Below, piece by piece: positions 8,843-54,986 of a stretch of 64,000 nt of DNA. Source of the stretch: Anadara kagoshimensis (Eukaryota; Mollusca; Bivalvia; Arcoida; Arcidae); assembly GCA_021292105.1 (NCBI GenBank), contig CM037869.1:39378655-39442654 (forward strand), read 5' to 3'. Made by a program: the position numbers and the translations under genes. The notes under the pieces are model-generated. The model ran no database searches. It saw only the letters and a program-made list of their open reading frames with translations, and was not told the origin of the DNA. The stretch's first letter is position 1. Each line of letters opens with the position of its first letter.

Positions 8843-8940
8843 GTGGACGAGGACTTAAATATTAAAGCACTGGTAACTGTAGAACTGATGTGGGATGTGG
8901 CAGCAGAGCACAGCCGCACCACAAAAACAAACTGATTACA

Positions 8941-9295
8941 ATGAAGGATACCTTTAACTATGTGGAATTTCCATGTGAGAAATCTACGTGGCCGCAAGTC
9001 CGGGAATTATTGGAAGATTTAAAAAACATAGCTCAGCATCAGAATTGTAATTTAGAGGAACTAGCCAAAGCTCATCAAGTTGTCGTCAACATCAACTTGC
9101 AAACAGAACACCGTGGAGCGATAGACTATGGAAGTTCAACTTTATATGGTTTAGTGAAATATTTGAAGAAATATGCTTCCAAGGAAGAGAGACGGCTTTT
9201 TCTACAATCAACATTTCCAGCTATCATCGACCTCGCTTTGGAAATCCCCAATGTAATCCCATTTGATGGCTTAATGTTTAGTAGACAGCAATGTG
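8941..9295 (+). CDS. PARG: PARG coding exon 1
   Basis: It encodes residues 1-118 plus one base. This is the mostly helical accessory part that precedes the PARG macrodomain, ending with FDGLMFSRQQC. The donor is GTGAGT at 9296. The exon seems to start before the ATG, since a possible acceptor (CATGCAG) ends at 8842, so an untranslated first exon probably lies upstream. Confidence 0.85.
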
Positions 9296-15300: not shown

Positions 15301-18300
15301 CGCCTAAAAATACGGCTGCCAGCGGGGAACATAGTTTAACATTGGACCCTATGGGAAAAACACATTTTGGCTATCTCCTCTGAAACTATTGAATCAAACT
15401 TAACTAAACTTTAGAGGAATGATGTATTGGAGGTTCTTTGCATAGATTGCCAAAATTTTTCTGATTGGCCAAAAAACATGGCTGCCAGAGCAAAAGGTAG
15501 TTTAACATGGGACCCTATGGAAAAAATGCATTTTGGCTATCTCCTCAGAAATGACTGAAGCGAATTTAACCAAACTTTACAGTAATGATGTATAGAAGGT
15601 CCTTCACTTAGATTGCCAAAATTTTTCTGATCCACCAAAAAACATGGCCGCCAGAGCAGAAGATAGTTTAACATTGGACCCTATGGGAAAAGCATATATA
15701 TGCTATTTCCTCTGAAGCTTGGGAAGCAAATTGAACCAAACTTTACAGGAATGATGTATAGAAGGTCTTTTACATAGACTGCCAAAATTTTCCTGATTGG
15801 CCAAAAAACATGGCTGCCAGTGGAGAATATTGTTTCACATTGGACCCTATGGGAAAAACATATATTTGCTATTTCCTTTGGAGCTACTAAAGCAAATTGA
15901 ATCAAACTTTACAGGAATGATGTTTGGATGGTTCTTTACTTAGATTGTGGACATTTTTTTGATCCGCCAAAAAAGATCGCTGCCAGCACAGAACATAGTT
16001 TAACCTATCCCTATGGGAATAGCATATATTTGTTATCTCCTCAAAAGCTACTGAAGCAAATTGAACCAAACTTTATGGGAATGATGTATGGAAGGTCCTT
16101 TACTTAGATTGACAAATTCAAATTGCCTGTTTCATTTACAATAAAGGCAAAACACTTTCAAAATCTCGGAAGCTGAAATTTCATTGGACAATAAATGTTA
16201 CAACAATGGCTTATTCACATATGCCCCTAAAAGGTGTTTCCTCAGATCTCCCACTCTGCACCTATATCGAAAAAACTGTGAATGGTACATATAGTTCTAC
16301 AGTGATTTCCTTAGCCATTCTGTCTGATATAAACAGTGCATTTGTTCATCACTGGAATACAAATTTGCTTTAAAAGCATTTTAGTCAGGTGAGCGATACA
16401 GGCTCAGCCACACTGAGCCTCTGGTATTGAGATGTAACCAGCAATACTGTCTACCTGTAGTTGCTTTTATTCACTTGGGACTTAATTTAGCTATATTTGT
16501 GGTTTGACTGAACAGCACAGAATTAAATATCAAGTGAAAATTTTCAAGTAACATTCATTGAAGTTAGATTTAGATAATCAGGACAGAAAATTATTATTCC
16601 TGGCCACTTCACCCGGAAATTTTATACCTGTAAAAATGAGGGTCCAGTGTTGGAGCCGCGAAATTTTATCCCCACAGAATTAAACAACTATACAGTGTTC
16701 TTAAACATACCATGCCTACTACTGTGATACAGGGCATCAGTTTTTAAGGTCTCTTCCGAAAGGACATGTTACTTTCATTTTTGAATACTGAGTGCTTGGT
16801 TAGAGGACAGTCGCTACCTATTTTCAAGTCTTGGTCAGACCCTGAATGGGCTTTTTGAATACTGATTGCTTGGTGAGAGGACAGTCACTATCTATTTTCA
16901 AGTCTTGGTCAGACCCTGGATGGGCTTTGAACCCCAACAACATCCCACATACTGTTTACAGTAGTTCAGTGTCATTTTCAGTCACCTGTTTCGATAAAAA
17001 AATTACATGTTACTTGATAGTCATATAAAATTACTTATAATCTTATGTCTTATTTTTCAGTCCTTCTCAGAATGCCAAGATAAGATGTATTTTGAGTTAT
17101 TTTGAACAAGTAGCGGAGAAGAGACATGAACTTCATGGAAATGTTATATTTATACGCCAGGTGAGTAGGGCTGGGACGAATCAGACACCTCGAATCGAAT
17201 CAAGTTCGAATCAAAACACCTTGGTTTGAATAATTTCGATTCGAATCAAGAAAAATTAATTACTACATGTTTTGTAATGTACTTTTATTCTTATTATCAC
17301 ATGTGACATCATTCTTACGACCACCAAGTAACAACACCTTTATAACAAAAAAGATACCTTTATTTAAGGCAAAACAAAATCAAAATATCAACAAAAAATA
17401 ACAAAAATTGATTGTTCAACACTACATAAGATTCTAGTGTGAAAAAGTGTGTTGTCAACAAAAAATAACAAAAATTGATTGTTCAACACTACATAAGATT
17501 CTAGTGTGAAAAAGTGTGTTGGTTTGCTTCCTAAAAGTCTGTGGTTTTTCAGGCACTCTGGTTTCCTCCACCATCAATAAACTGACCACTTCAGTATAAG
17601 TTAAAAAAAATTGACTTAAGCATAAAACTCCCATTACTTCCCACTTCACATAAGAATTGGTTTTTACAAAAAATGCTTATATTTTAGATGTATAAAATTC
17701 TAGTTTTCTTGTGTGTTACACTACTTTGTTTAATTTTTCGTTTCAGGTCATTCCACCGTGTGAGCTTCCTTCAATGGACACTTGGTTAAACTGTCGATCT
17801 GAGTTATGCCCCTTGATAGCCCATCGGGAAGGTTTAATAGAAGATGCAGGATTTGAAGCTATTCATGTAAGTATCACTCGTTGATTAAATTGTTTCAGTA
17901 AATTATTTCATCAGTGCTGCAGCAAGAAGTTTTTAACACATTAAGATTTATTTATCAACTATTTTGTAGGAAAAAAATTGCATAAGGGGGCAGGCTGTTA
18001 ACAAGGAATTTTAATTTGAAATTTTAACAGACGGATACTAATTCATTATTTGAAAATATCTTATGAATTTTGCATTGGAATATATCATGCCGAATGCTTC
18101 AGGGTCCTTTGAAAGATACCTTAAAAAAGTTAAACTAATGTCACATTTCTCTTAAAAACAAATTCGAGAGATATTTTGGTTTCGAGGTGTTGAACTAAAA
18201 TTCATGTGGAGATTCATTTGAGATCATTTGCTTTTAAATACATGTAATTGGTTAAGAAAAAATTAACATTTTCAATTATTTCCTTTTGCTTAATTTACTA

Positions 18301-21300
18301 CCAAATAAAGATAGTTTCTCCTGGGGAAAAACGGCTAAAATTTCCAATTATCAAAATAAATAAGTTGACCTTACCCACAAAATAAAATTCAAATATTGCC
18401 ACAATATTATAAAATGATATCTTTGCAATGAGGAACTTGTCTATTGCAAAGCATGTTATAATGCAGTTTGCTGTATTTCAGATCTTCATTTTTCCAAATC
18501 GTAAAAGATGAAACCGAATCACTGAGTATGATTTATCTTAAAAACAAATTTGTAAGAAGTTGTGGGTTTGAGGTAGAGTGGTGAAAAGGGAGATAACTGG
18601 ATGTTTTTAATTGATATAAGGGAGATAACTTGCTGTACATTTGTTTATAGATTGATTTTGCTAACAGATACATTGGTGGTGGAGTTTTAGGAAGTGGAAG
18701 AGTTCAGGTTAGTTTAAGATGGAATGCTATGTGTAGGTATGAGTTATGTCCCTTACAGGGATTCTGAAAATCAAGACTGTTGGGACATTGTTGTCCCCCG
18801 CCGCAACGCGGAGTGGAGACATAGAAATGCCGGGCATCCGTCCTTGGGTCTGTGTGTCTGTGCGTCCTTGTTTCCGTCCGTCACACTTTTTTGTTAGCGC
18901 TCTCATGCCTACAAATTTTAACGGATTTTCATGAAATTTATACCAAATGTTTATACCACTAATATCTTGGTCAAGTTCGCAAATCAGCATTGGTCGATAC
19001 TTTTTGTTGGAGTTATGGGACTTTGACCACAATAATGACTCTGTTTTATCCAAAACTTGACCTTGTAAGCGCTCTCATGCCTACAAATTTTGACGGATTT
19101 TCATTAAATTTATACCAAATGTTTATACCACTAATACCTTGGTCAAGTTTGAAAATCAGCATTGGTCGATACTTTTTGTTGGAGTTATGGGACTTTGACC
19201 ACAATAATGACTCTGTTTTATCCAAAACTTGACCTTGTAAGCGCTCTCATGCCTACAAATTTTGACGGATTTTCATTAAATTTATACCAAATGTTTATAC
19301 CACTAATACCTTGGTTAAGTTTGAAAATCAGCATTGGTCGATACTTTTTGTTGGAGTTATGGGACTTTGACCACAATAATGACTCTGTTTTATTCAAAAC
19401 TTGACCTTGTAAGCGCTCTCATGCCTACAAATTTTGATGGGTTTTCATAAAATTTATACCAAATGTTTATACTACTAATACCTTGGTCAAGTTCGCAAAT
19501 CAGCATTGGTCGATACTTTTTGTTGGAGTTATGGGACTTTGACCACAATAATGACTCTGTTTTATCCAAAACTTGACCTTGTAAGCACTCTCATGCCTAC
19601 AAATTTCGACGGATTTTCATTAAATTTATACCAAATGTTTATACCACTAATACCTTGGTCATGTTTGAAAATCAGCTTTGATCGATACTTTTTGTTGGAG
19701 TTATGGGACTTTGACCACAATAATGACTCTGTTTTATTCAAAACTTGACCTTGTAAGCGCTCTCATGCCTACAAATTTTGACGGATTTTCATTAAATTTA
19801 TACCAAATGTTTATACTACTAATACCTTGGTCAAGTTCGCAAATCAGCATTGGTCGATACTTTTTGTTGGAGTTATGGGACTTTGACCACAATAATGACT
19901 CTGTTTTATTCAAAACTTGACCTTGTAAGCGCTCTCATGCCTACAAATTTTGATGGGTTTTTATTAAATTTATACCAAATGTTTATACCACTAATACCTT
20001 GGTCAAGTTCGAAAATTGGCAATAGTTGATACTTTTTTGTTGGAGTTATGGGACTTTGACCACAATAATGACTCTGTTTTATCTAAAACTTGACCTTGTA
20101 AGCGCTCTCATGACTACAAATTTTGATGGATTTTCATTAAATTTATACCAAATGTTAATACTACTAATATCTTGGTCAAGTTCGTAAATCAGCCTTGGTT
20201 GATACTTTTTGTTGGAGTTATGGGACTTATGAATTATGGAGTTATACAGTATACTAGTATACTGCTTTCCCGGCGGGGGACCCAGGAATTCTATTCTTGT
20301 TGAAATTTATTTGTGGATTTCTGTTAAGTATGTGCAGCAGTATTGAGCTCCATGATAAATGTTGTACATAATTATAACAAAAATGCTTTCATTCATGAAG
20401 CAAACGGTCACAATTTTCGGACGTTATATTCTCAGTATGTCACAAAATCAAATAAGTACAGTTCATCCTGCCTTAAAGGCCATCTTTATTGAAGGGCCAC
20501 TTGCTTATAAAGTCCAGTAGAATTGTATCTCAATTGTTCTTTATTCATATTATTTGAACCTGTATATAAAGGCCACCTACCCATAAAGGCTGCTTTTACT
20601 GGTTCCTTTGGGTGGCCTTTATGGACAGGTTTGACTGTATAATGAGACTTGTATTTACAAATAGAATGAATAAATATTTATTTTATGATTTCTATAGGAG
20701 GAGATAAAGTTTACAGTTTGTCCGGAGTTGATAGCGTCCATGTTGTTTATGGAATGTATGGAACACAATGAGGCCATTGTTATCAAGGGATATGAACAGT
20801 ATACCCTTACCTCGGGGTATGCAGCCAGTCTACAGTATGTCGGGCCATACAAAGATCCAGCAATGGTAAGTTTACCATAAACTGCTACTGTAAATATTTA
20901 TTTTTGCAGTGTACTTATTTTTGCTTATTTCGTGGTCACTTGTTTTCTGTGAAAATTAATACCTATCTATCTTTCTATCTATCTATTTATCTATCCTCTT
21001 TGCTCCTAGCACAGATCTCTCCACTTCATCCTATTTAAAGCAACTATCTTAGCAGTCCTCCAACTTGGCCAGCCCATATCATGTCTTTCCTTTTCAGTTG
21101 TTCTTCTCAAGGTCTCTCTTATTCTCCCTCTTCTTTTAACTTCTGGCGCCCAGGTCAATGCCAAAATTAATACCGAGGGAAAATTATGATATGCTTATTG
21201 TTTTATAGTGCAGATTTAAAAAAAAACGCGAAAATTTAACTAAGCAGATATGATTTAATTTCATATACTTCAAAAATACGTGCGAAATTAAAATGTTTAC

Positions 21301-24300
21301 AGTAAATGGGTTTTGCCAGTATTCAATACAATAATTGATCATTATCCCCCCAAAAAAACCAGTTTGTTGTTTTAGAAATGTTTAAATCATATATTGTATA
21401 ATGTTGTTTTTACTGGAAAATATCAACCTCTATATCCATTGAAATTTTGTCATACCTTGCCTTTCAAATTTCAAATTTCCATCCTTCCGTCCATCCGAAA
21501 TTCTTCTCTGCGCATATTATCTAAAACTATGAAGAACTATTTTACAAAACTTGGTGCAAAGAATCAACATACATTGTACATGTAAGATGCACATATCGTT
21601 AATCTGAGTTGGTTTGCTTATTTTCCTAGGAGTTATGGCCTTTAAGTGCAAATCACAAAAAATAACTTGCTGGTGGGGATCCTAATTCACTGAATTTGCT
21701 TGTTTGTTTTATGATATTTTATAGAACATTGATGTTAAAAAAGTCTGTCCCGAGCCATTAGGCCCATCAGGCCGGAGCTTATCCCGGTTTCGGTGGCGTT
21801 AAGCATCTGAGAGTACAAGACTCTCCCCTGAATGGGACGCCGGTCCATCGCAGGGTTAACCCCCAGCATTTTGCTGGTACTCATTTATTTTTCAGCTGAG
21901 TGAACTGGAACAACGTGAAATTAAGTGTCTTGCTCAAGGACACAACACATCGCCCGGTCCAGGGATCGAACCCACGACCTTCGAATCATGAGTCCAACGC
22001 CTTAACCACTAGGCCATGCGCTTCCACGAACATTGATTTAGCCTAATTAAAGTTCATCATTGTACAGTAAAACCTGGATTTGTTACTACCATTAGTTCAG
22101 TAAAATTTGGGAATTATAAAGGCATTTGGCATTACAGTAAAGTTGCTTTTATTCACTGGGGATTTTATTTCGTTATATTTGTGGTTTGACTTTATTAGGG
22201 CGAAATTAAATACAAAATAATTATTTTCATGTAGCATTCATTTAACATTGACTGAGATAATCCATATAGAAAATTGTTAACATTGACCACTGCATTGCAA
22301 AATTTTATACCCCTGAATAAGTTCAAGCGTCTGAACCGCAAAATTTATTTCCGGAAGAATTAAACAAATATACAGTATTTATTAAATTCATTTGTTTAAT
22401 TCACATGATTCTAATTTACATGTACAAAAAATACATGTATAAGGCATTTACACGGATTTTAATTGCTTGAAATTACTACTGATTAAAGGTCATTTTCCCT
22501 TGGGAAAAATGACTAAAATTTCCCAATTTGTCCAATAAAATTCCCAAAACAACACTAAAGAAATTAAATCTAGTTTTCCTTACCCACAAAATACCAGATA
22601 GTACCATAACAGGGCTCACACTGGGTCAAAATTTTGTGTCGCAGATGTGACTGAACGCAGTCTAGGGGGGTGGGGGGGCATGCTCCCCGGAAATTTTTTT
22701 AAATCATGGTGTAAAATACTGCATTTTCCAAGCATTTAGGCTGTTTGTACATTTTATTTCAGGTACTTCTGATTAGATGAACTTTAGCATACAACTGTGC
22801 AGTCACTATATTATGATAATATAGTGACTTTGTAGTAAAGATACTAGCTATTGCCTGCATATCATAATGCAGTTTGCTAGATCTCAGAAGTTCAAATTTT
22901 CAAATCTTAAAGGCAGAAGGTAGGTTTTAAAAAAATGAAACAAAATCACTGATTTATTTCTTTAATTACTAGTTTGATATAGATGGAAACTTAAGGAGCA
23001 CAATCTGTGCTATAGACGCCATATCATACAAGAAGAACAGTGACATCCAGTATAGGGACTCCAACTGTCTGAGGGATTTAAATAAAGCATACGTCGGCTT
23101 CTGTGTCAGAGTTGATACTTGTTCTGTACCCATGGATATGTATAGTTACCATGACAACAACCAATCAAAGACCAGAAAAGATGATTCAGCTAGTGATGAG
23201 GAATTCCTGACTGCTGATGAAGGGGGGTTTGAAGACGAAGAAGGTGAAGGTATGCATGTACACATTTTTGAGTGAGTGGGGTTGGGCTTTTGTATTACGC
23301 TAGCCAGCTTAGTGTATGGAATACAGAGGAATAATATTGTTTTATGTCCCAGTCAAGAGTATTTCACTTATATCGAGATGTTACCAGCGAAGTGAAGTGG
23401 CAGAAATCTTAACCATTGCAGTTTACTCGAGGCATTTGTTTTTAAGGTCTCTTTCAAAGAACCCCATGACTTTCATTTCTAAATGCAGTGTTTGGGGAAA
23501 GAACAGTCACTCTCTATTTTCTCAATACTGGACACAGAGACATCATACTTATCAACAATACTGTGATGATGGCCATAAAACTTTTTGAGGATCTTAATAA
23601 GCCTAGCCATGCAATATCCCATAATATATTTATTAGGAATTATTTTCTGCTTATTCATCTAAATTTTATTTATTTTTTCAGTCATCAACAGTATTTATAA
23701 TCTTGCTGAGGGGCTAGTAGTGGAAATAATGTCATCTGCCTTGTTAGAAGCTTGTAGTTTACTGTGTCAGAAATCTGGAGATGATAATAAGGCTTCAGAA
23801 AATGGGTTAGAATCTGAAAACTATGGTGAATGCGATGGCATGGATTATTTGGATGTAGATGTGCAGGAATGGTATAACAGATTCCGACGACGAAGTTCAA
23901 ATTTAAGTGATATAACATCAAGGAGAAGTAGTTGTGAAATACTTTCCCGTAGAAGCAGTTGTAGCCGATATAGTTCAGACTTCAGCTCAGAATTCGAAGA
24001 ATTTTACGATAATTTTCAAAAACGGGAGCAGTTGTTTGTTAATCCGACAATTAAAGAAGAGGTTTGTAGTCCTACGATTAACGAGTTTGCGTCCAGTCTC
24101 GTGGCCAGCATTTTACAGGAAGGAACGTTCGAAGCAGCCCATGCTAGTTCAGGTCTGCAAAAGTTTTACGACAACATTCCAGTGGAAAAAGTTGCCAGAC
24201 CAAAAGCAAGAAAAGCTTCTGAAGAAAATGAATTTAAGACTTTACAAACAGTTGATCCTAAAAATTTAGATAGAGACTTTAGACAATCTCTTGATGATAA

Positions 24301-27300
24301 TGATGAGGATGTGGACAATGATGATGATGATGCCCATAACATTTCTCTGCCATCAAATGAATTGGATAATGATACTGACATTAAAAACCGTGAAGTTAAA
24401 TCGTTCGTGGATTCTGTCATAACAAAATCGGTAGATACAATTTGTACAGAAACAGCTGAAAAATTCGCTGATCAATTGTTGGCCATGATTTTCCCGGCTG
24501 CAGTTGACATTGTGCGGAACTCTGTGAAAGAGCAGTGTTCAAACATTCCAGAAAGGAGCACGGTAGATAATTCTAAAAGTCAAATGAATGACAAAAGTCA
24601 GGAAAATATTTGGAAATCAAAAGCAGAGTTTGATATTAAAGATGAAAAACAAAGTAATAAGACTAGATCAAAAAGTGATGTTGATTCTCATGGAGTACAG
24701 GGTGTGGCAACAAATATTGCCAGTCAAATTGTCGGCACGGCAATGGGCTCTGTCAAAAATGCACGAAAATCTTCAGAAAATGAGGAATCAACAACTGAAA
24801 ACATTTCTTCTATGGCAAGTTTTGAAACAAGTTCAACTGCTGATAAAACAGCATTAACAAGCTTGCCTGCTGATGACCATAATAAGAATTCTATTGATGA
24901 AGAAAATCTTGAGAAAGGTGTATCATCGGACAGTTTGGCCGGTGGTGATGGGTACAAACAAACTGCTGAAAAATTGGTGCAACAAATATTTACCTCAGTG
25001 TCAGAAAAATTGTCCAATGAATACCAGGACAGTCAAGTAAAGAAGGCAGAATCTATGCAGGTAGAAACACAGGACAAAGGAGAGGTTACAAAGAAAGAAA
25101 ATGGTGCTGAAGAAAGTCGCCATGACGATTTTAATCAGAGCAAAGAAATTCCCAAAGTGATACTAACTGCAGAACAAAATACAAATAAAAGCGAACAAGA
25201 ATTATTTTATGAGAAAATTGCCGAGAGACTCATTCACGGTGCTTTTAATACGGATCAAACTAGCTCAAAACTTTCGGAAAATAATGCAAAGTGTTTGAAA
25301 AATTCCAGGGAGGTAATTCCCGATACAGAGCCAGTCAAACATCCAAAACCTGTTTTAATGTCAAAATTCCATTCTGATGACAAAGTGACTTTTAATATTC
25401 AAAACTGTTGTGGAGGAGTTGGAACTTTAAATAAGGGGGAAGGTACTCGGAAGGTTACGTCTTTTGCGAATTCTCTGTCACGGGATCTTCTGACAAACGC
25501 TTTTGTGGAGGTCCAGAGAAATTATAACGGAGGAAACTACTACAGAAGAAGCAGCGAGCCCCTTCAGTTGTCCAATCAGGCAGCTTTAGGCTTAAAAGAT
25601 TTATCAGAAGAAATGGGATCTGGAAGGGATAGAAAAGCGAAAAGTCGGGCAGACGAGGACATTGGATCTTTTGTGGAAGAACTCGCTCGTCATGGAGGTT
25701 CTGTCGGGGAATTCGGATCCAAGTTTAGTAGAACTACCTATGGTTTTAGGGATCCAACTCTTTCAAGGTATGTTGATATAAGTTAGAAAACCATTCCTGA
25801 GAACTTGAATTGTCATCAGCTACTCACTTGTCATGAAGGCTCATTGAAGTTTGGTAGAGCTATTTACTGTTATCGGGATCCAACACTTTCTTAATCTACC
25901 CCTAGGGAATAATACCTAAATTTTCCCAATTTATCCACTTAAATTCCAAAAACAACAGTCATATAATATATACTGTACATTGTGTACTAGGAAATTAAAT
26001 ATGCATGTTGTTGTTCGTACACACAAAATTTCAGATTTTTTTTCCACCATATAACATCTGTTGCCAGCATGTCATAATGCAGGTTGCTTAATTTGTTATC
26101 AGAAATTCAATTTTCCCAATCTTAAGGTAGTTTAAATTGTAATAAAATAACTGAACATGCCTTGTGCAAATTTCATAATACCAGTAGTTTATTCAATGAG
26201 GTAATAAATTCAATATTATTATATTAACACAATTGTGTGTGTGATTATTTCTATTGTATAATCTCAGAAAAATTTTAGTTTCGTAAACAGAAAATTTTGT
26301 TCCTTACTCATATTACTATAGGACATACAGTATAGACCTGTCAAAAGTTTAACATTAAACTTGTTCCTTTCACACAATTTTGATTACACACGTGGTGGGT
26401 GTAGCTAGTAGCTAAACAGGAGGTGCTTACCCTTCCGGAGCACCCGGCCTCACTTCCCTGGTGGAAGTTCATGTGTTAAACCTAACTTGTCAGTTTTTAT
26501 TTTGCTTCTGGATTGTGATTCGGACATGGATTAATATGTTTGTTTTTTATTAACCTAACAAGCACAGACTCCTCCTTAGTTATATCTTAACAGCTTCTAA
26601 GCAGGTGTTACTATCTCTGCAACTTTCCACTAACTATCCATTTTTCTGCCACTCAACAGCTGACCTTTTACATCTTTTTTATAATTATTAAGCTTTGGAC
26701 AGGGTTGTACTGTGTTTCAGCAATACGCACAAATTATTACAGTTGAAAGATGATGCCATTTTCATGTTACAATGATATCAATAATCAAGGAAAACAGTGA
26801 TATAACACTAGTGTAATGTGATATTCATTACATTAATTTTGGGGACAGATCATGACTGGAACCTGACACTACTCCTCCACTTTTGACATGTATGTGTACT
26901 TCCATTCCTGGTAGCCAATATTGCCATTGGCTGGTAAATTCTGAGAAATTTATTCAAAAAGTGAAATTTTAGAATATGGATAAAAAAATTGAAAAATTTA
27001 TTCAAAAAGTGAAATTTTAGAATATGGCTAGAAAAATTTGAGAAATTTATTCAAAAAGTGAAATTTTAGAATATGGCTAGAAAAATTTGAGAAATGTATT
27101 CAAAAAGTGAAATTTTAGAATATTTTTGAAAAAATATTTCAAAAAGTCCTGATGAAGGCCACCCCATATAACCTACAGCAAAAACTCACCATATCCATGA
27201 TATCTGAAGATGTTGGTGTTCATCCTAATTACTACTAAGATGTAAAATCTTGAAATGTTGATTCTTGCAAAATTCACAGAAATTTTGGGATTTACAGTAC

Positions 27301-30300
27301 AGTCAAGCATTCCTTAAAGGTCACCTGTATACTGTAAACGTATTTATTTTCGCAGTGTCCTAACTATCACTTATTTTGCGGTCATTTGTGTTGCGCGAAA
27401 ATAATTACAAAGCGGAAATTATATTTTACTTTTTATGTTATTGAGCATATTTCAAAAACACGAAAATTTAACTACGTGGATATGTCTAAATATCCTATAC
27501 TGCGAAAATAAATACACATGAAATTAAATACATTTACAGTATAAGAACCACCTGCTTTTAAAAGCCTGTAAATTTTAATCCCAAATTGGTTTTTATTCAT
27601 GTTATTTGAACCTGTATATAAGTACCACCTGCCCATAAAGGCCATGTTTACTGTTTCCCTTGGCCCAAGGGGTGGCCTTTATAGACAGGTTTGACTGTAC
27701 TTCAATTTTACCAGTTTTAAAGCAGAAGGCATTAAAAATATTACAAAATCACTGCTGTATTTGTTCTTGATATTTTTCAGATTTGCTGAAGAGTTGATGA
27801 GAAGCCAATGCAAAGTTCCAGAGTTCGTCTTTATCGATTCCACAAACATGAGTACCAGTGGATCATCGTCACGATCTCGGCAGAGTAGTATTAGCGGATT
27901 CAAGGACAATATTCTTGCTAGTTTTGAGGACGAGTTACTAAACTCGAGTTTTGGTCGAACTTCTAGTAGAGGTAGTAGAAAAAGAAGTAAAAAATTCAAA
28001 CAAGTTTCTATACAAAAGAATGCAAATTTAGAAAACTCTTTAGATATTAAAGACGGAAAATATTCCGCCAAAGGGTGGCGTGGTATGTCTTTTGATAGTG
28101 AGGCTTCGGGATTTTCATGGCGATCCTTCCAGTCATCATCGCCAAGCAGTTTTGAAGAAATTTCTGATTATGCTGAAAGGTTAGCTCAGAACATTCTTGA
28201 AGAATCGTTAAAAACAGTATTTAGGGACCAATTATGTCCATCTACTACTTGCCAGTCTCCTTCTAAACCCCGAGTGAAAACCCTTGATGAGTATGCTGCA
28301 GACTTAGCCAATAATATTGTTTTAGAATCTCTTTTGAAAGTAGCCACTCAGAATCGTAAACTCTCATCTAATAGTAATGGGAATGCCGGTGATCTGAAGG
28401 ACAAAAACAATAAGACGAGACAGGATAGCACGAGGACCGATGGAACTTCTAGTTCTGGGACTAATCATGGGACAAGATCCCAAAGTTTGTCTGACGACTT
28501 TACTGATGCGTTTGATATTCCTTATGCAAGAATTGAACAGTTTGCCCAGAATGTTGCCTCAGATGTTATAAAAAATTCAGCCATGGTGTTTAAACGAGAA
28601 AAACAGTGTGAACTGAAGGTAAGTTATATGCTATATGATTTAATGATCTTTTTGTCTCCTTTATATAGCATATTAGCATACCAGTCGTGGTTGTTGTTTG
28701 GTTTGTGTAAGCAAGACATTGGTTTAAGATTTTGAAATGCAGCTTTTATTTTATTGCCTACCATTCAAAGTAAAAAGGATTTTGAATTCAAACATCAGTC
28801 CTTTTGTCTGTCTAGACAATTCTTGTCCAGAGTAATTCTCCAAAACTATGAAACACTATTTCACAAAAACTTGGTGCAAAGCATCAACATTGATAGGAGA
28901 TGAACATAAGCTGGTTTGTTCAATTACCTGGAAGTTATGGCCCTTTGAATCACAAAAATTAGGGGATTCTTACTATTTACTGAATGTTCTTGTTCAGGCA
29001 AAGACTTGCAATCTACTATCTACAGACCAAGGGTTCAAAATTATGTTTTGTAATGGAAGGTCTGGGACCTTATGCCTTTATTTTTGACGGGTTCCACAGA
29101 AAGTTTTGTAAGTCCAATATTGCCAATGTTATCAAATAGAAAAATTAGTTTTATCCTGGTATAATATGACAGGTCCATCAGACTTTAACAGTTAAAATAC
29201 TGTATAGGGGGGATTTTTGTGTGGGCAAATTTTCATTTATTTTGCGCTTCCTGCGGAAATAATCCCCTTTACGATATCAAGGGTGCCAATGTGAAATCAA
29301 TAGGTACCCGGCCTCAGACACTGAGACTGATTAATCCCTACAGATATCTTGTATTAATTAACTGCTTAATTAGCTGTTTGGTACTTTGTTCAATTCAATG
29401 TTTATATACTATCTGAGCATTGCTATTTGTAATTTTCAAAGTAAAGTTTTTTTGTACAATGAACCAATTACATGTACTTCATTTTAAGAAGAAATACTGA
29501 AGACCAATATCGAGCATTGTAATTTTCAAAGTAAAGTTTTAATTACCATTATTTTATTTTAAGAAAAAATATGGAAGACCAATATCGACAGGAAACTGGG
29601 GATGTGGTGCTTTCCGTGGTGATCCATGTCTCAAGTCTATGCTTCAGTGGATAGCGGCGTCCTACGCTGGAGTACCATATGTCCTCTTCTACACATTTCA
29701 ACACCCAAGTCTATTTAAGGTAGAGTACCTGGTATTTCAAATATTGTTGTTATACCCCACATAGTGATGACAGAAGAGTCAAATATTTCTGTAGATTAGT
29801 GCAGTTCAAGTACTGACTGATTTTGACTTTACTGGGATGACCTAAATTAATTTATTAAGTCTATTAAGTCCTTTCAGCATTTTAAAACTTTGAAAAAAAT
29901 CGGTTACCATTGTAAACAACCATGCAAAAATATGTTTTGGTGTATTAAAGGAGTTATAATGCATGGATTAGTTTGAAATCAGGATTTTTAGTAACAGCTC
30001 TGTCCATTGAATAAATGAATTATTTATTTGTACTTGTCCCATTGAAAATCTACAAAATATTTGTGTTTTTGTAATCTCTGAAATAGTGTAAACAAACAAT
30101 AGGGTAGTGATATGTTTGTGGCATAGTGGCCCTGGGAGGTAGAACTAAAAGTTGTTTTTAGAGCATGCTTGAACAAAGCACATCATGAAACTTACTTGCA
30201 CATTTCATGCATACATGAACCTGTTCTTAGATTATTCCTTAGATCTTGTAACAAATACCCTAAAACTTGCTGATGCTTCCTTAAACAAATACCAGTACCC

Positions 30301-30666
30301 CAGATCGTATGATCAGCAATTCTGGAAATTTTTAGGTGCGAAATTTACAAGAGTAGAAGCTTTTTTTAACAAAAATTTAGCCTGAAAATTACCTGCTTAA
30401 ATTACACAAGTGCGCAAATTACATGGGTTTTTACGGTACATTACATCAACTAGATATATTATACATGTACATCTAAGTGTTATTTTCTGTTTCAGCTTCA
30501 GCAGGTGGTTGATACCATTGCTATGAGGGGGTGGAATGTTGGTCAATTGATGCAGGCTGTTAGGAGATATTGTCTTGCCAAAATGGAGAAGAAAACAAAA
30601 TTAGAAGAAATGCCGATTGACTTGTTTGACCATTTGCTGTTTGGTGACTTTGAAGACATAACTTGA
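8941..30666 (+). CDS. PARG: Poly(ADP-ribose) glycohydrolase (PARG) with a ~1,000-residue AKAP-like insert
   Basis: PARG removes poly(ADP-ribose) chains by hydrolysing ribose-ribose bonds. Eleven coding exons join with consistent phases: 8941-9295, 13915-14062, 17061-17160, 17747-17866, 18651-18707, 20698-20865, 22973-23249, 23682-25767, 27781-28618, 29564-29719, 30496-30666. They give 1,491 residues. The catalytic loop is at residues 250-262 (GGGVLGSGRVQEE). E261 and E262 align with human E755/E756, D243 with D737 and Y301 with the clasp Y795. The C-terminal motif TGNWGCGAF is near residue 1392. In known PARGs LNKAYxGF lies close to TGNWGCG; here about 1,025 residues separate them (about 361-1388). 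The start is the ATG at 8941: the frame is stopped at 8863 with no ATG between. The long N-terminal regulatory region of vertebrate PARG is absent unless it lies in upstream exons I cannot see. Family assignment is very secure; enzyme activity is inferred. Confidence 0.93.
10053..10886 (+). mobile_element. hAT-like DNA transposon remnant, 834 bp
   Basis: Inverted ends CAGTGCTCCAGATA; TCCTTA(CA) is duplicated on both sides. The CAGTG end and a 6-8 bp duplication fit the hAT superfamily. It carries one short coding remnant (10535-10786) and no full transposase. Confidence 0.65.
10535..10786 (+). pseudogene. hAT transposase N-terminal zinc-finger remnant
   Basis: About 83 codons encode CTLCTDYKTDSLWAQEGSSN and later GHSNSQEHLIAKHN. 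The spacing C-x2-C ... W ... G-x-x-N ... H-x5-H is that of the TTF/BED-like zinc finger at the start of hAT transposases and of ZNF862-like host proteins. The rest of the transposase is absent and there is no strong ATG. Confidence 0.5.
10903..11160 (+). repeat. SINE-like fragment, tail duplicated
   Basis: It contains two copies of CTCTGGTTTCCTC then CCATCCCAGATCT, each followed by a CTGGGA-type tail, ending with AATCTTGACTGGGATGTAAA. The tail is shared with family 1. Confidence 0.5.
11192..11503. mobile_element. CAGGG-ended MITE, second copy
   Basis: Ends CAGGGATTTATCAAGGGCC and, inverted, CAGGGATTTATCAGGGTC, flanked by CATTT on both sides (11187-11191 and 11504-11508). Interior motifs such as TTTTTCCCAATTTTTAGT match 1691-2065. 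Confidence 0.75.
11904..12243 (-). mobile_element. tRNA-derived SINE (family 1), complete, with 16-bp target duplication
   Basis: A perfect duplication TATGCCAGAAGAGGAG lies at 11888-11903 and 12244-12259. Read on the minus strand it runs from CCACTGCAGTAGCTCAGTTG (A box) through a B-box region to the tail ATTACTCAACTCAAC. Length 340 bp. It is among the youngest insertions in the window. Confidence 0.85.
12378..12751 (-). mobile_element. 5'-truncated non-LTR retrotransposon, 15-bp target duplication
   Basis: The duplication TATTATTATATGACT lies at 12363-12377 and 12752-12766. The minus strand of 12386-12739 encodes the end of a LINE reverse-transcriptase protein: IRWPEKISKQDLW, RRIW-like RIWRWIGHILRQ, KRKRGRPVTTWQRTLDNDL, and RDRWRAIVEALCPSRGAKD before the stop. 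The frame is open, so the insertion is recent. Only the last ~120 codons are present. Confidence 0.85.
12767..13914. other. PARG intron 1, distal part, with a long palindrome
   Basis: It is non-coding. The main structure is a near-perfect palindrome at about 13264-13422: TAGACGAGTGGGGGTTAAAT at the left pairs with ATTAAACCCTCACGAGTCTA at the right around GCCACGAGCC. A broken second inverted repeat and A+T-rich DNA fill the rest. Confidence 0.6.
13915..14062 (+). CDS. PARG: PARG coding exon 2
   Basis: The acceptor TTTTCAG ends at 13914 and the donor GTATGA starts at 14063. The exon encodes SQTELSRSCIASILACAFLC and following residues, matching the PARG helix with consensus SQEQIASLLANAFFC. It completes the split codon of exon 1 (phase 1) and leaves two bases. 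Confidence 0.9.
14571..16427 (+). mobile_element. Satellite-core cassette 1 (Helentron/Pearl-like), 9 x ~166 bp
   Basis: Left end TTTTTAGCTCACCTGGCC then TAAAGGCCATGTGAGCT, a terminal hairpin, followed by a CCGTCAGT-rich tract. The core is about nine tandem units of 165-167 bp, anchored by CAAACTTTACAGGAATGATG at 14740, 14907, 15073 and so on to 16068. The right end TCAGGTGAGCGATACAGGCT includes a second hairpin, GGCTCAGCCACACTGAGCC. The same ends occur inverted at 34926-37125. No coding potential. The structure resembles non-autonomous rolling-circle elements with internal satellites known from bivalves and flies. Confidence 0.7.
16437..16700. mobile_element. MITE E
   Basis: It begins GTTGCTTTTATTCACTTGGG and ends GAATTAAACAACTATACAGT. 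It aligns along its length with 22133-22378, which has the complete end TACAGTAAAGTTGCTTTTAT. Confidence 0.55.
16700..16945 (-). repeat. SINE (family 1) fragment, internally duplicated
   Basis: Two tandem copies of TTTTCAAGTCTTGGTCAGAC and its flank (~16779-16855 and ~16853-16932) derive from the head-proximal part of the SINE. Confidence 0.55.
17061..17160 (+). CDS. PARG: PARG coding exon 3
   Basis: It lies between acceptor TTTTTCAG and donor GTGAGT. It encodes SPSQNAKIRCILSYFEQVAE and on to VIFIRQ, equivalent to the PARG segment with the LKTLxCYFRRVTE motif. It ends in phase 0. Confidence 0.9.
17170..17280. repeat. TTCGAATC-rich inverted repeat
   Basis: Repeated TTCGATTCGAATC-type words form an imperfect palindrome just inside PARG intron 3. 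Confidence 0.4.
17388..17521. repeat. Perfect 67-bp tandem duplication
   Basis: TCAACAAAAAATAACAAAAA through AGTGTGAAAAAGTGTGTTG occurs twice with no difference (17388-17454 and 17455-17521). Confidence 0.85.
17747..17866 (+). CDS. PARG: PARG coding exon 4
   Basis: Forty codons in phase 0, encoding VIPPCELPSMDTWLNC and on to EDAGFEAIH. This is the segment just before the catalytic loop. The donor is GTAAGT. Confidence 0.9.
17867..18650. other. PARG intron 4 with degenerate repeat F
   Basis: A+T-rich. About 18315-18530 resembles parts of introns 6 and 8: GGGAAAAACGGCTAAAATTT, CTTACCCACAAAATAAAATT and CATGTTATAATGCAGTTTGC. No exon seen. Confidence 0.4.
18651..18707 (+). CDS. PARG: PARG coding exon 5 (catalytic GGG loop)
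   Basis: A 57-base exon encoding IDFANRYIGGGVLGSGRVQ, the PARG signature loop including the aspartate equivalent to human D737. The exon boundary falls exactly before the two catalytic glutamates, which open exon 6. Acceptor TTTATAG, donor GTTAGT. Confidence 0.95.
18793..20281 (+). mobile_element. Satellite-core cassette 2, 8 x 172 bp, 11-bp inverted ends
   Basis: GTCCCCCGCCG at 18793-18803 is a perfect inverse of CGGCGGGGGAC at 20271-20281. Inside are eight units of 172 bp (starts 18897, 19069, 19241, 19413, 19585, 19757, 19929, 20102), each containing GCGCTCTCATGCCTACAAAT and GGAGTTATGGGACTTTGACC. Units 2-6 are nearly identical. Short 80-codon open frames recur because of the repeat and are not genes. 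Confidence 0.75.
20457..20640. mobile_element. pogo-like MITE
   Basis: Inverted ends TACAGTTCATCCTGCCTTAA and, inverted, TACAGTCAAACCTGTCCATA; interior GGTGGCCTTTATGGACAGG. TA-flanked TACAGTnnAACCT ends are typical of Tc1/mariner-pogo MITEs. A second copy is 27298-27700. Confidence 0.6.
20698..20865 (+). CDS. PARG: PARG coding exon 6 (catalytic glutamates)
   Basis: It starts with EEIKFTVCPELIASMLFMEC. The first two codons are the catalytic glutamate pair (261-262). It also encodes GYEQYTLTSGYA, whose last tyrosine (301) aligns with the substrate-clasp Y795 of human PARG; the tyrosine at human 792 is a threonine here. The donor is GTAAGT. Confidence 0.95.
20884..21305. mobile_element. MITE G interrupted by a LINE
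   Basis: The left end ACTGTAAATATTTATTTTTG and the right end AAATTAAAATGTTTACAGTA are inverted. The element is split by a LINE piece at 20963-21162. Related copies are at 27330-27541 and, more diverged, 14065-14275. Confidence 0.6.
20963..21162 (-). mobile_element. 5'-truncated LINE with (GATA)n tail and 11-bp target duplication
   Basis: AAAATTAATAC lies at 20952-20962 and 21163-21173. The minus strand of 21006-21152 encodes a LINE C-terminus (VKRRGRIRETLRRTTEKERH, then NRMKWRDLC and stop). It is followed by GAGGATAGATAAATAGATAG, a GATA-type 3' tail. Confidence 0.75.
21306..21733. other. PARG intron 6: diverged repeat
   Basis: About 21400-21700 resembles 28800-29000 in intron 9 (AAACTATGAAGAACTATTTT, ACAAAACTTGGTGCAAAGAA, GGAGTTATGGCC), a copy of another satellite-type unit. 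Not coding. Confidence 0.4.
21734..22027 (-). mobile_element. tRNA-derived SINE (family 2) with 10-bp target duplication
   Basis: GAACATTGAT is at 21724-21733 and 22028-22037. Read on the minus strand it starts GTGGAAGCGCATGGCCTAGT, has the B box GGGTTCGATCCC and a body with TTGAGCAAGACACTTAATTT, and ends near GGCCTAATGGCTCGGGACAG. A near-identical copy lies at 63681-63984 on the plus strand. Confidence 0.85.
22133..22378. mobile_element. MITE E, complete copy
   Basis: TACAGTAAAGTTGCTTTTAT at the left; AATTAAACAAATATACAGTA at the right. About 246 bp, aligned with 16437-16700. Confidence 0.6.
22490..22972. repeat. Degenerate repeat F in PARG intron 6
   Basis: It contains CCCTTGGGAAAAATGACTAA, TTACCCACAAAATACCAGAT and ATATCATAATGCAGTTTGCT, shared in order with introns 4 and 8. 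It ends next to the exon 7 acceptor. Confidence 0.45.
22973..23249 (+). CDS. PARG: PARG coding exon 7, entry into the insert
   Basis: It encodes ICAIDAISY and RDLNKAYVGFC (ending at residue 360), standard PARG catalytic-domain sequence. It then departs from the family into a charged tail rich in Asp, Glu and Ser, ending near residue 408. The boundary between conserved fold and insert is therefore inside this exon, just after GFC. It ends in phase 1. Confidence 0.9.
23250..23681 (-). repeat. PARG intron 7 with SINE fragment
   Basis: Most of this 432-bp intron is a diverged family-1 SINE piece (~23336-23530, minus): TATGTCCCAGTCAAGAGTAT to GGAAAGAACAGTCACTC. The remainder is A+T-rich before the acceptor. 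Confidence 0.6.
23682..25767 (+). CDS. PARG: PARG coding exon 8: giant exon with AKAP-like helices
   Basis: This exon of 2,086 bases encodes residues 409-1103, with no similarity to the PARG fold. It holds low-complexity acidic and Ser-rich linkers and repeated amphipathic helices with pattern A-xx-LV-xx-IL-xx-A. They lie at about 417-428, 545-556, 651-662, 671-682, 751-762, 837-848, 922-933 and 1004-1015; a weaker FVEEL helix lies near 1071. RRSS occurs at 478-481, 489-492, 498-501 and 1030-1033, fitting the PKA RRxS consensus. There is no stop over the whole exon. Reading through its donor (AG|GTATGT at 25768) would stop after nine more codons. Confidence 0.88.
25768..27780. other. PARG intron 8: repeat-filled
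   Basis: 25895-26160 is a copy of repeat F. About 26385-26560 resembles 34690-34870 (GTGTAGCTAG ... CTGGCCTCACTTCCCTGG). About 26900-27150 is MITE A-derived with a ~56-bp unit (ATTCAAAAAGTGAAATTTTA) repeated four times. 27298-27700 is a nested pair of MITEs. No coding exon found. Confidence 0.55.
27298..27700. mobile_element. pogo-like MITE with MITE G nested in it
   Basis: Outer ends TACAGTCAAGCATTCCTTAA and, inverted, TACAGTCAAACCTGTCTATA match 20457-20640. Inside, 27330-27541 (TACTGTAAACGTATTTATTT to ACATTTACAGTA) sits at a TA. The flanks CACCTGTA and AAGAACCACC join smoothly when it is removed. Confidence 0.65.
27781..28618 (+). CDS. PARG: PARG coding exon 9: second insert exon
   Basis: It encodes residues 1104-1383. 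It opens with RFAEELMRSQ, continuing a helix begun in exon 8, then a Ser/Arg-rich linker. Three of the clearest AKAP-type helices follow: YAERLAQNILEESLKTV (1234-1250), YAADLANNIVLESLLKV (1275-1291) and FAQNVASDVIKNSAMVF (1358-1374). It ends with CELK before donor GTAAGT, in phase 0. Skipping exon 8, exon 9 or both would break the frame, because their lengths sum to a non-multiple of three. Confidence 0.88.
28619..29563. other. PARG intron 9
   Basis: 28800-29000 resembles 21400-21700. About 29205-29290 holds TTTTGTGTGGGCAAATTTTC, a piece of the repeat better seen at 31535-31740. A ~60-bp stretch around 29430 (ATTTTCAAAGTAAAGTTTT) is repeated at 29520, just before the exon 10 acceptor. Confidence 0.4.
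29564..29719 (+). CDS. PARG: PARG coding exon 10: return to catalytic domain
   Basis: It encodes GRPISTGNWGCGAFRGDP and following residues, including YVLFYTFQHPSLFK. This matches the PARG C-terminal motif TGNWGCGAFGGD and the strand DVVYFTFGD. The acceptor (AAG at 29561-29563) lies after a T-rich tract; the donor is GTAGAG, weaker than the others. Confidence 0.92.
29720..30495. other. PARG intron 10
   Basis: A+T-rich, no recognisable element beyond weak similarity of 30330-30440 to the GCGAAATTTAC-type MITEs. No exon seen. Confidence 0.4.
30496..30666 (+). CDS. PARG: PARG coding exon 11 with stop
   Basis: The last exon encodes LQQVVDTIAMRGWNVGQLMQ and on to FDHLLFGDFEDIT, then TGA at 30664. 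It corresponds to the PARG C-terminal helix region (LTVGDVYKLLLRYY in vertebrates). The acceptor is TGTTTCAG. Confidence 0.92.
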   Translation, partial: LQQVVDTIAMRGWNVGQLMQAVRRYCLAKMEKKTKLEEMPIDLFDHLLFGDFEDIT

Positions 30667-41089: not shown

Positions 41090-42155
41090 TTATCCCTGTA
41101 AATCAAGAATTGTGAGGTTAGAAGTCTGATCGCCTATAACTAACTTTTGTTGTCCATTCACCTTAAATGGCTTCATCCAGTTGATTTTTCCAGTGTGTTG
41201 AATTTCTTGAATTTTACAAACTTCAGAAATATTCTCGTTTCGCACTTCATGAGGATTTGAATGTCCGTTTGAGGCTCCATTTGACGCACCATTTGATGTA
41301 CCATTTGAATGTGATCCACCATTTTGAGAAGTGTCGTCTGCTTGGTTGGATTTTGCCAAATCCATAATACAATGCAGCAGTCATTACCTCCTGACACTAG
41401 AGAGCTCTCATTTAAGAAATGAACTTGTGAAGCACCCTGTGAATGAGCATGAAGACTAAATAACTCGCTAATATTTTTTCTACTCATGTCAAAAATAGCC
41501 ACAATACCATTTTCTAAGCCCCTGCCAGATAATGGCCATCCACTGATGTCGCTAAGTTATGAATAAATGGCGGATTGACCATATATGCCCCAACATCTGA
41601 ATTAGTATTTTGTAGTTCTTGCATATTATATTGGTTCAGACATTTTGGCCGTGAAAAGTCCCAATGTATAAGTTTGCAATCCAATCCTCCGGTTACAACT
41701 TCCCATGGCTTTCTGGGTCTAAACAAACAGATGCACATATATTTGTATGTTTGTGTCGCAGAGTTTTATACACTTTTTTATCTTTCAAGTCTAAAAATTT
41801 TAATTTCTCCAGAATCGTCACAAGCGGCAAGAAATTTCTCTTTTTCATCAACGACAATCTGATTGATTTCTTCTTGATTCACATTGTAATCTTCAACCGC
41901 TTCCGAAAAATTCCTCAAATCGAAAATTTTTATCTTATCATCAAATGATGCATAAATCAAGAATTCATTTTCTTTTGATGTGACCACTGATGTACAATCC
42001 GTGTCCTGGATGGTGGTTTTATTTATAAAACTGGAATTCGAATTCCATACACAAAGTTCTCCATTTTCTCCACCCGACACAATTTTGGATCCATCATGAG
42101 AGACGTCCACACAAAGGACCGACCCAGTATGACCTTCCCTTAATACCGCAGACAT
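41090..42155 (-). CDS. WDR53: WDR53-like WD-repeat protein, frame broken by four 1-bp indels
   Basis: WDR53 is a WD40 propeller reported as a DDB1-CUL4 substrate adaptor. The minus strand carries the whole protein in order, from MSAVLREGHTGSVLCVDVSH to VIGDQTSNLTILDLQG. Recognisable segments include EINQIVVDEKEKFLAACDDS, TNICASVC with FRPRKPWEVV, and VHFLNESSLVSGGNDC; a WDxR-like FDLR is at residues 78-81. An Asn/Ser/Gly-rich linker precedes the last blade. Frame breaks lie at about 41783-41785 (one extra A in the coding strand), 41721-41723 (one T missing), 41519-41522 (one G missing) and 41362-41363 (one G missing). Allowing for these, the length is about 355 codons against about 358 in human. 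A splice acceptor (TTTCTGTTTCAG) sits four bases before the ATG, so a spliced 5' UTR is likely and a processed retrocopy unlikely. It is either a very recent pseudogene or an intact gene with sequence errors. Confidence 0.88.
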
Positions 42156-42158
42156 GGT

Positions 42159-43997: not shown

Positions 43998-54986
<10,989 letters not shown>

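Follow-up and report, generated by a model that had tools for sequence, protein, structure and literature searches.

How can a PARG carry some thousand residues in the middle of its catalytic domain, and what would such a protein do? An earlier note on this DNA had described a PARG gene split in this way by an array of AKAP-like helices. In the window, the whole stretch of 64,000 nucleotides analyzed here, we found 11 exons on the forward strand, from 8941-9295 through 30496-30666 (Table 1). Their borders are GT-AG and their phases compatible throughout, so that a single open protein of 1,491 residues results. The exon borders given earlier are correct. Judged from the sequence, the product is likely a PARG, probably active, with an AKAP11/SPHKAP-like scaffold body in a surface loop just before TGNWGCG, which shares descent with the lineage of the vertebrate AKAP3, AKAP4, AKAP11 and SPHKAP and has kept the whole catalytic domain.

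The split catalytic domain

In the Pfam scan of the whole protein, PARG_cat_C matched in two stretches (6.6e-69, 232 bits; cut-off 26.3) and PARG_cat_N was found as well (2.2e-23, 83 bits; cut-off 25.6). The signatures GGG, QEE and TGNWGCG are all intact, with GGGVLGSGRVQEE and TGNWGCGAF present. We take GGG-x6-8-QEE and the TGNWGCGAF loop to be the PARG signature and presume the roles of the residues likewise; the enzyme is probably an active PARG. LNKAYVGFC comprises residues 352-360 and TGNWGCG begins at residue 1392. The 1,031 residues counted in between, compared with about 1,025 in the earlier note, bear out the claimed split; in PDB alignments the same gap measures 11 residues in 8adj and 13 in 3uek and 4fc2. 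Structure models were of low confidence (pLDDT 38 and 35).

LNKAYVGFC shares exon 7 with the FFAT-like EFLTADE, and in exon 10 TGNWGCGAF is joined by the AKAP-type LQWIAAS. As PARG and AKAP features lie within the same exons, the hybrid nature of the gene does not depend on splicing alone.

Table 1. Coordinates of exons and motifs of the split PARG gene
Feature	Position	Strand	Basis or remark
Exon 1, PARG	8941..9295	+	start is first in-frame ATG; acceptor at 8843, so additional 5' exon possible
Exon 2, PARG helical domain	13915..14062	+	PARG_cat_N match
Exon 3, PARG	17061..17160	+	GT-AG, phase
Exon 4, PARG	17747..17866	+	GT-AG, phase
Exon 5, PARG	18651..18707	+	IDFANRYIGGGVLGSGRVQ, GGG signature; conserved in PDB alignments
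Exon 6, PARG	20698..20865	+	EEIKF (completes QEE) and GYEQYTLTSGYA; PDB alignments
Exon 7	22973..23249	+	LNKAYVGFC at 23078-23104, then acidic linker absent from solved PARGs
FFAT-like EFLTADE, residues 393-399	23201..23221	+	SPHKAP DFLTASE, AKAP11 DFVTA-E
Exon 8, insert, residues 410-1103	23682..25767	+	eight AKAP-type helices, one degenerate
Helix h1 LAEGLVVEIMSSALLEA, residues 416-432	23702..23752	+	profile scans
RRSS cluster (PKA-type R-R-x-S)	23885..23962	+	site pattern
Helix h2 FASSLVASILQEGTFEA, residues 544-560	24086..24136	+	profile scans
Helix h3 FVDSVITKSVDTICTET, residues 650-666, degenerate	24404..24454	+	profile scans
Helix h4 FADQLLAMIFPAAVDIV, residues 670-686	24464..24514	+	profile scans
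Helix h5 VATNIASQIVGTAMGSV, residues 750-766	24704..24754	+	profile scans
Helix h6 TAEKLVQQIFTSVSEKL, residues 836-852	24962..25012	+	profile scans
Helix h7 FYEKIAERLIHGAFNTD, residues 917-933	25205..25255	+	profile scans
Helix h8 FANSLSRDLLTNAFVEV, residues 1003-1019	25463..25513	+	profile scans
Exon 9, insert, residues 1105-1383	27781..28618	+	three AKAP-type helices; SmAKAP is top Pfam match
Helix h9 YAERLAQNILEESLKTV, residues 1234-1250	28169..28219	+	top score with known-AKAP-helix profile
Helix h10 YAADLANNIVLESLLKV, residues 1275-1291	28292..28342	+	profile scans
Helix h11 FAQNVASDVIKNSAMVF, residues 1358-1374	28541..28591	+	profile scans
Exon 10	29564..29719	+	PARG-type TGNWGCGAF loop (29588-29614), then AKAP-type LKSMLQWIAAS (29630-29662)
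Exon 11	30496..30666	+	AKAP-type tail, LFDHLL, up to stop codon

Helix array, FFAT-like motif and tail

Motif enrichment and profile scans identified an amphipathic helix of AKAP spacing (14-18 residues) repeated along the insert. The 12-position motif proposed earlier had 11 matches in the 975-residue insert (shuffle mean 0.34, maximum 3 in 2,000 shuffles) and none in the 460-residue PARG part. At 413 and 417 the motif picks up the same helix in two registers, and therefore ten helices match. Nine of the eleven positions listed in the earlier note were exact and the one at 922 matches one turn earlier (918), but 651 had no match and poor profile scores. A profile of ten known AKAP helices, three of which were confirmed in PDB entries or a publication, found 11 insert windows at 4 bits or above. 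The same profile yielded 0.72 windows per 1,000 residues in 98 E. coli open frames, and none of 382 overlapping E. coli pieces of 975 residues reached 11 windows (best 3).

Nine of 959 insert windows passed the 1-per-1,000 threshold with an RI/dual profile and six passed with an RII profile as well; helix h9 scored 17.3 with the former and 5.9 with the latter. Overall, RI/dual-type and AKAP_110-family profiles fitted the insert helices better than the RII-type profile. When exon 9 was scanned alone, SmAKAP came out as the top Pfam model, with its match (E 0.002, 19.5 bits, below the cut-off of 27) on helix h9 at residue 1234. Exon 8 scanned alone had no Pfam match, and AKAP_110 matched neither of these two exons. 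Scanned singly, one of the ten helices matched an AKAP model (SmAKAP, 0.09), and a profile of ten helices searched against the PDB found no AKAP. From these profiles, the insert helices would probably dock PKA, with RI more likely than RII.

The FFAT-like motif, with its core EFLTA-E and an acidic flank, precedes the array. It fits the family motif DF[LV]TA-E, as given for AKAP11 and SPHKAP in two papers (PMC3261905; PMC12696101), save for E in place of D at the first position. The pattern [DE]F[LV]TAxE occurred in none of 5,000 shuffles, having been picked after the sequence was seen, and a broad FFAT pattern was present in 1,356 of 5,000. The protein may bind VAP through this motif. Moreover, R[RK]x[ST] sites are enriched, with 10 matches (two overlap) against 1.3 expected (0 of 3,000 shuffles).

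For the 89 residues after TGNWGCG, AKAP_110 was the best Pfam model (E 6.1e-5; 22.0 bits, below the cut-off of 25), matched at positions 610-671 of 690, with PARG_cat_C behind it (5.4e-4). Among control PARG C-termini, 8adj had no match to AKAP_110 and 3uek an E of 0.36. Alignment scores of the tail were 128 for SPHKAP, 98 for AKAP3 and 100 for AKAP4 compared with 47 and 48 for two PARGs; the AKAP sequences used in this and all other alignments were provisional versions, not database records. AKAP_110 was not listed in the whole-protein scan. Since the tail stays below the cut-off, we propose that it resembles AKAP_110 and shares descent with it, and do not count it as a member of the Pfam family. 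The earlier note named a lack of AKAP-type helices in profiles as a refutation, and this is touched in part by the whole-protein scan, in which no AKAP model rose above its cut-off. The note's proposal of a multivalent PKA scaffold gains support from the AKAP-like tail, the FFAT-like motif and the SmAKAP match; the RII type that it invoked fits less well than RI/dual.

In the proposed mechanism the two PARG halves would fold together and about 1,000 residues, presumably mostly disordered, would form an arm tethered to them. Along it, each of ten or eleven short amphipathic helices could dock one PKA regulatory-subunit dimer, RI being likelier than RII. At the base of the arm the FFAT-like motif would bind ER VAP once T396 is phosphorylated, and docked PKA would phosphorylate R-R/K-x-S/T sites along the arm. 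PAR removal would thereby be placed within a cAMP/PKA assembly.

Origin of the split enzyme

A study from 2024 reported that the C-termini of AKAP3, AKAP4, AKAP11 and SPHKAP derive from PARG and that the N-terminal part was lost (PMC11377751). As this link is already published, the insert is better read as an AKAP body than as a random insertion. By sequence, no convincing alignment was obtained between the insert and the provisional AKAP sequences (Smith-Waterman P against shuffles 0.034 for AKAP3, 0.077 for SPHKAP, 0.39 for the AKAP4 body, 0.45 for the AKAP4 N part and 0.55 for the AKAP11 N part). The N half of the locus protein was collinear with provisional SPHKAP 1-230 (score 74; 0 of 1,000 shuffles in each direction). 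Comparisons of the N half with AKAP11 (P 0.3) and AKAP4 (about 0.08) (FFAT part left out) were non-significant, as were those of two ordinary PARGs with SPHKAP (P 0.67 and 0.17). A profile-profile comparison of the N half gave a probability of 1.1% when the window sequence was included and 0.2% when it was left out. SPHKAP may retain a degenerate N-terminal PARG half, and the locus looks like the undegraded form, in which both PARG halves flank the AKAP body.

Convergence would mean an ordinary PARG with a disordered insert of its own, whose helices look like those of AKAPs because amphipathic helices with this spacing evolve easily. Its partners might then be others, either proteins with an RIIa domain, ropporin for example, or unrelated ones. 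The poor alignment of the insert and the single helix matched by an AKAP model speak for it. We consider it unlikely, given that the tail is AKAP-type despite lying outside the insert, that, as in SPHKAP and AKAP11, an FFAT-like motif comes before the helices, and that the PARG origin of these C-termini was published independently (PMC11377751). Equally improbable is a late, non-ancestral chimera, formed when a separate AKAP11/SPHKAP-type gene entered or recombined with PARG in this lineage. Domain fusion is common, and a lamprey PARG_homolog, g7740, with PARG_cat and AKAP_110 is tabled as cyclostome-specific domain shuffling (PMC11788884, Table 3), absent from outgroups including a limpet. 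This label, in a survey which took in the limpet and nine other invertebrates (PMC11788884), speaks against an old origin of the domain pair. The survey's whole-protein Pfam approach would probably miss the present gene, as our whole-protein scan did for AKAP_110. A chimera is at odds with the PARG-type C-terminus that the four AKAPs already have (PMC11377751), with the collinearity to SPHKAP and with the mixed content of exons 7 and 10.

Exons 8 and 9 are both large and intron-flanked in a gene model drawn from genomic sequence alone, and could belong to another gene within a PARG intron, unjoined to the PARG mRNA. We regard this as very improbable. GT-AG borders are in phase on either side, a helix motif begins upstream of the first Met of exon 8, and the AKAP-like features of exons 7 and 10 reside on PARG exons. 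Skipping exons 8 and 9 (2,924 nt) shifts the frame. The donor in use scored +4.2, and between LNKAYVGFC and 23300 no in-frame donor to exon 10 scored above -2.6. Upstream of exon 10, its reading frame stays open only as far back as 29543. The insert exons sit in open frames of 707 and 346 codons, and the longest in the shuffled window had 216 (30 shuffles, one strand). Codon usage was non-discriminating, as its correlation with the PARG exons was 0.70 for the insert read in frame and intron sequence reached 0.71.

Our preferred reading, common descent with the vertebrate AKAPs, can be taken further: AKAP3, AKAP4, AKAP11 and SPHKAP would be degenerate PARGs throughout, from one bifunctional early-animal PARG split by a PKA-RI/VAP scaffold. 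SPHKAP and AKAP11 would keep both macro-fold halves, their catalytic residues lost, around the same insert, and the locus would be a living copy with the enzyme working. We see this extension as evenly balanced. If it is true, a single protein once combined PAR erasure with type-I PKA anchoring. The locus also predicts that binding of ADP-ribose or PAR may persist in the vertebrate AKAPs, a suggestion made in the 2024 paper too (PMC11377751). Should database sequences bear out the SPHKAP comparison, the published view of a lost N-terminal PARG part would be corrected. The locus looks like a link between PARG and the human scaffolds AKAP3, AKAP4, AKAP11 and SPHKAP. AKAP11 is associated with bipolar disorder and schizophrenia, SPHKAP with neurons and beta cells, and AKAP3/4 with sperm. 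For this medically important family a concrete origin is offered in a PARG with an AKAP insert opening up the loop at its active site, and PAR removal and cAMP signaling are predicted to be joined on one polypeptide in some living animals.

Comparison with known systems

The helix of the RI-specific smAKAP (PDB 5hvz) is in register with locus helix h9 ISDYAERLAQNILEESLKTV, and smAKAP is the top Pfam match of exon 9; it is, however, a small membrane protein with a single helix (PMC13025221). Lamprey g7740 has the same Pfam domain pair in one gene, compared by its table entry (PMC11788884). Canonical PARGs (8adj, 3uek, 4fc2) are alignable over residues 75-360 (8adj) or 70-360 and in the TGNWGCG loop. 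They differ in their loop of 11-13 residues, against 1,031 here, and the post-loop tails of 8adj and 4fc2 score low against that of the locus protein.

AKAP3 and AKAP4 (Pfam AKAP_110) are sperm fibrous-sheath AKAPs. Similar to them, the tail matches the end of AKAP_110, and the AKAP4 helix YANQVASDMM resembles FAQNVASDVI at the locus; the provisional AKAP3 and AKAP4 sequences lack PARG catalytic signatures and their body is not convincingly alignable with the insert. SPHKAP (SKIP) and AKAP11 (AKAP220) are type-I/dual PKA anchoring proteins. They share with the locus protein an FFAT-type motif followed by a long region with FAxxLAxxIV-type helices, and R-R-x-S sites. The SPHKAP tail, which we take to be LQWIAAS..P..F...VG......LFDWLL, has a counterpart at the locus with LQWIAAS and LFDHLL. 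By one pattern the insert has six helices compared with three in the provisional SPHKAP sequence, two in AKAP3 and three in AKAP4. For SPHKAP, the FFAT motif and RI anchoring are described as experimentally shown in two papers (PMC10460453; PMC12696101). Its provisional sequence lacks GGG, QEE and TGNWGCG, whereas the locus carries a complete PARG domain.

PARG catalytic domain in two stretches

The PARG gene consists of 11 exons whose internal borders are all GT-AG with compatible phases, and its product comprises 1,491 residues. In this protein both PARG domains score above the Pfam cut-off, the macro domain as two stretches, and the DFAN, GGGVLGSGRVQEE, EQY..tsGYA and TGNWGCGAF signatures can be aligned with those of solved PARGs. 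The earlier note had described a PARG divided by a long insertion, which was confirmed: 1,031 residues lie between LNKAYVGFC (352-360) and TGNWGCG (1392), compared with 11 in 8adj and 13 each in 3uek and 4fc2. The insert proper, encoded by exons 8 and 9 (residues 409-1383), contains 14% S and 7-9% each of D, E, K and N.

We rejected the reading that exons 8 and 9 form a nested gene and consider it highly improbable, as omission of these exons breaks the PARG frame and we see no other donor that would restore it. For the same reasons an ordinary PARG is probably not made by this gene. Codon usage as a coding test of the insert exons was uninformative and did not discriminate. Relatives of the PARG protein were searched in bacterial and archaeal contigs (33 pattern matches, none confirmed) and, with a PARG alignment, in viral contigs (96 matches, none confirmed).

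Features of the window are listed in the table. The long frames at 49277-50256 derive from a repeat and show that open frames alone are no proof in this window.

Features of the window and their coordinates
Feature	Position	Strand	Details
PARG gene	8941-30666	+	ATG to end of stop codon
Open frame in PARG intron	12386-12865	-	159 codons; no Pfam match at 0.01; RWIGHILRQ...GRPVTTW, resembles the end of a retrotransposon polymerase
Tandem array in PARG intron	14704-16116		166-bp unit
Tandem array in PARG intron	18891-20228		172-bp unit
Tandem array	35021-36560		145-bp unit
WD40-repeat gene in pieces	41090-42173	-	MSAVLREGHTGSVLCVDVSHDGSKIVSGG...; piece 41778-42170 matches WD40 (Pfam, 2.6e-14); resembles WDR53
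Weak tRNA match	47864-47933	-	30.6 bits, just over Rfam cut-off; possibly a tRNA-derived repeat
Tandem repeat	49277-50256		26-bp unit x37, 92% matches; leaves open three frames of 291, 330 and 386 codons on the - strand
Weak tRNA match	63689-63758	+	33.5 bits, just over Rfam cut-off; possibly a tRNA-derived repeat

Array of AKAP-like helices in the insert

The repeated amphipathic pattern noticed in the insert held up, its 11 matches representing ten helices in 975 residues; 2,000 shuffles of the insert gave a mean of 0.34 and a maximum of 3, and the PARG part contained none. A hand alignment of eleven helices (h1-h11, h3 being degenerate) follows I/V/L-xx-F/Y-A-xx-L-A/V-xx-I-L/V-xx-A/S-L/F-xx-V; mean hydropathy ranges from 1.35 to 4.0 at its paired positions and from -2.9 to +0.1 at those in between. 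Eleven insert windows reached at least 4 bits with a profile built from ten known AKAP helices. The background, 98 E. coli open frames no shorter than 200 residues (39,111 residues in total), gave 0.72 windows per 1,000, and the highest count among 382 overlapping pieces of 975 residues was three. The helix at 1234 (h9) scored 16.3 with this profile, within the 7.3-30.1 that the known helices obtain in leave-one-out scoring.

Profiles were also made by subtype. With the RI/dual profile, 9 of 959 insert windows exceeded the 1-per-1,000 level, against a mean of 0.64 and a maximum of 4 in shuffles; the AKAP_110-family helix profile likewise had 9 of 959 above threshold (shuffles: mean 1.3, maximum 5). 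The RII-type profile scored seven of the eleven helices negatively, its threshold still being passed by 6 of 959 windows (shuffles: mean 0.86, maximum 5). A preference of the helices for PKA RI is a lead, because the RI helix set has three members only. The best Pfam match of exon 9 alone was SmAKAP, an RI-specific AKAP, on h9 (E 0.002; 19.5 bits, below the cut-off of 27); exon 8 alone had no match. When ten single helices were submitted to Pfam, one matched an AKAP model (E 0.09), and no AKAP model reached its curated cut-off anywhere on the window protein. A PDB search with one helix yielded no match and one with a ten-helix profile four, none of them an AKAP. Alignment-free structure prediction for exons 8 and 9 gave weak models (pLDDT 35 and 38), in which all eleven helices fall within predicted helices, as do other stretches.

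Similarity to AKAPs outside the helix array

The tail after TGNWGCGAF reads LKSMLQWIAASYAGVPYVLFYTF...WNVGQLMQAVRRYC...LFDHLL. Its best Pfam model is AKAP_110 (6.1e-5), at 22.0 bits below the membership cut-off of 25, followed by PARG_cat_C (5.4e-4); of the control PARG C-termini, 8adj did not match AKAP_110 and 3uek reached 9.5 bits. The tail aligned with SPHKAP, AKAP3 and AKAP4 at scores of 128, 98 and 100, and with the 8adj and 4fc2 PARGs at 47 and 48. In a single BLASTP comparison with the AKAP4 C-terminus it was 37% identical over 68 residues (E 8e-12). A PDB search with the tail alone returned three matches, E 0.79 or worse, none of them a PARG. As for the identity of the AKAP sequences used in all these comparisons, AKAP3, much of AKAP4 and the tail of SPHKAP are recognised by Pfam, and the SPHKAP and AKAP11 N-termini are confirmed through their FFAT motifs only.

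Past LNKAYVGFC, exon 7 encodes an acidic stretch containing EFLTADE (393-399). According to the respective papers, the FFAT motif of SPHKAP is DFLTASE (PMC12696101), AKAP11 carries DFVTA-E plus EFFDS-D (PMC3261905), and co-localisation of SPHKAP with VAP requires the F and T of its motif (PMC10460453). The pattern [DE]F[LV]TAxE, picked after the match was seen, was absent from all 5,000 shuffles; a broad FFAT pattern occurred in 1,356 of 5,000.

Residues 201-408 aligned with SPHKAP 1-230 at a score of 74. When either sequence was shuffled 1,000 times no shuffle reached this score, nor did any of 146 and 130 E. coli pieces. Without the FFAT part the score was 63 (1 and 0 of 1,000 shuffles). Pairings include QEEIKFTVCPEL with QQKLVNVSPDLP, NEAIVIKG with NEIVVLSG, and NCLRDLNKAYVGF with NCIIFEINKFLIGL. 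AKAP11 can be aligned over the span between LNK/LSK and the FFAT motif with a single gap of one residue, although weakly (15 of 500 shuffles reach the score). The 8adj and 4fc2 PARGs showed nothing significant against SPHKAP 1-230, nor did the N half against AKAP11 and AKAP4 with the FFAT part removed, nor profile-profile comparison of two- and three-sequence N-half alignments. The insert gave no convincing alignment with the AKAPs. The N-half similarity to SPHKAP is, in our view, a good lead that falls short of proof.

Possible function and origin

The idea of a multivalent scaffold for PKA regulatory subunits is supported by the sequence in a changed form: the insert most likely represents an AKAP11/SPHKAP-like protein body, and RI-type PKA would be the likelier partner. 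The split point lies in a loop adjoining the TGNWGCG loop, which contacts the ADP-ribose diphosphate. If a disordered arm exits and returns at this place, the two PARG halves may still be able to fold, and the arm could offer up to eleven candidate docking helices plus a possible VAP hook. The protein might thus concentrate type-I PKA, possibly more strongly with a longer array, and combine this with PAR erasure in a single assembly, which might be located at the ER. In the arm, ten R-R/K-x-S/T matches were counted against 1.3 expected, a number reached by none of 3,000 shuffles; a PP1 docking motif (KVTF at 976) is not significant (one found, 0.30 expected).

The tail, the FFAT-like motif and the N half, all outside the array, point to one family. 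Pure convergence was rejected and appears unlikely to us, as the AKAP-type tail lies outside the insert and the FFAT-like motif precedes the array. A late fusion of an AKAP11/SPHKAP-type gene with a PARG gene in this lineage has a similarly small chance. It would fit a 2024 survey of 22 animals, including a limpet and other invertebrates, in which the combination of PARG_cat and AKAP_110, carried by a PARG homologue of the lamprey, is listed as one of the domain pairs specific to cyclostomes (PMC11788884); the pair was not found in the limpet or those other invertebrates, which counts against an old origin. A whole-protein Pfam scan of the survey's kind misses AKAP_110 in this protein too. We are fairly confident that the locus encodes an intact PARG around an AKAP11/SPHKAP-like body, sharing common descent with AKAP3, AKAP4, AKAP11 and SPHKAP. 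Whether these four are degenerate PARGs throughout, this locus being a living copy of the ancestral form, we judge evenly balanced.

In their available text, neither PMC11377751, which derives the C-termini of these AKAPs from PARG and regards the N-terminal part as lost, nor PMC11788884 mentions an intact PARG with an AKAP body splitting it, and searches of open-licence literature for PARG with AKAP, AKAP11 or SPHKAP listed no further relevant title. The link between PARG and AKAPs at the C-terminus is already known; new here is the undegraded split enzyme.
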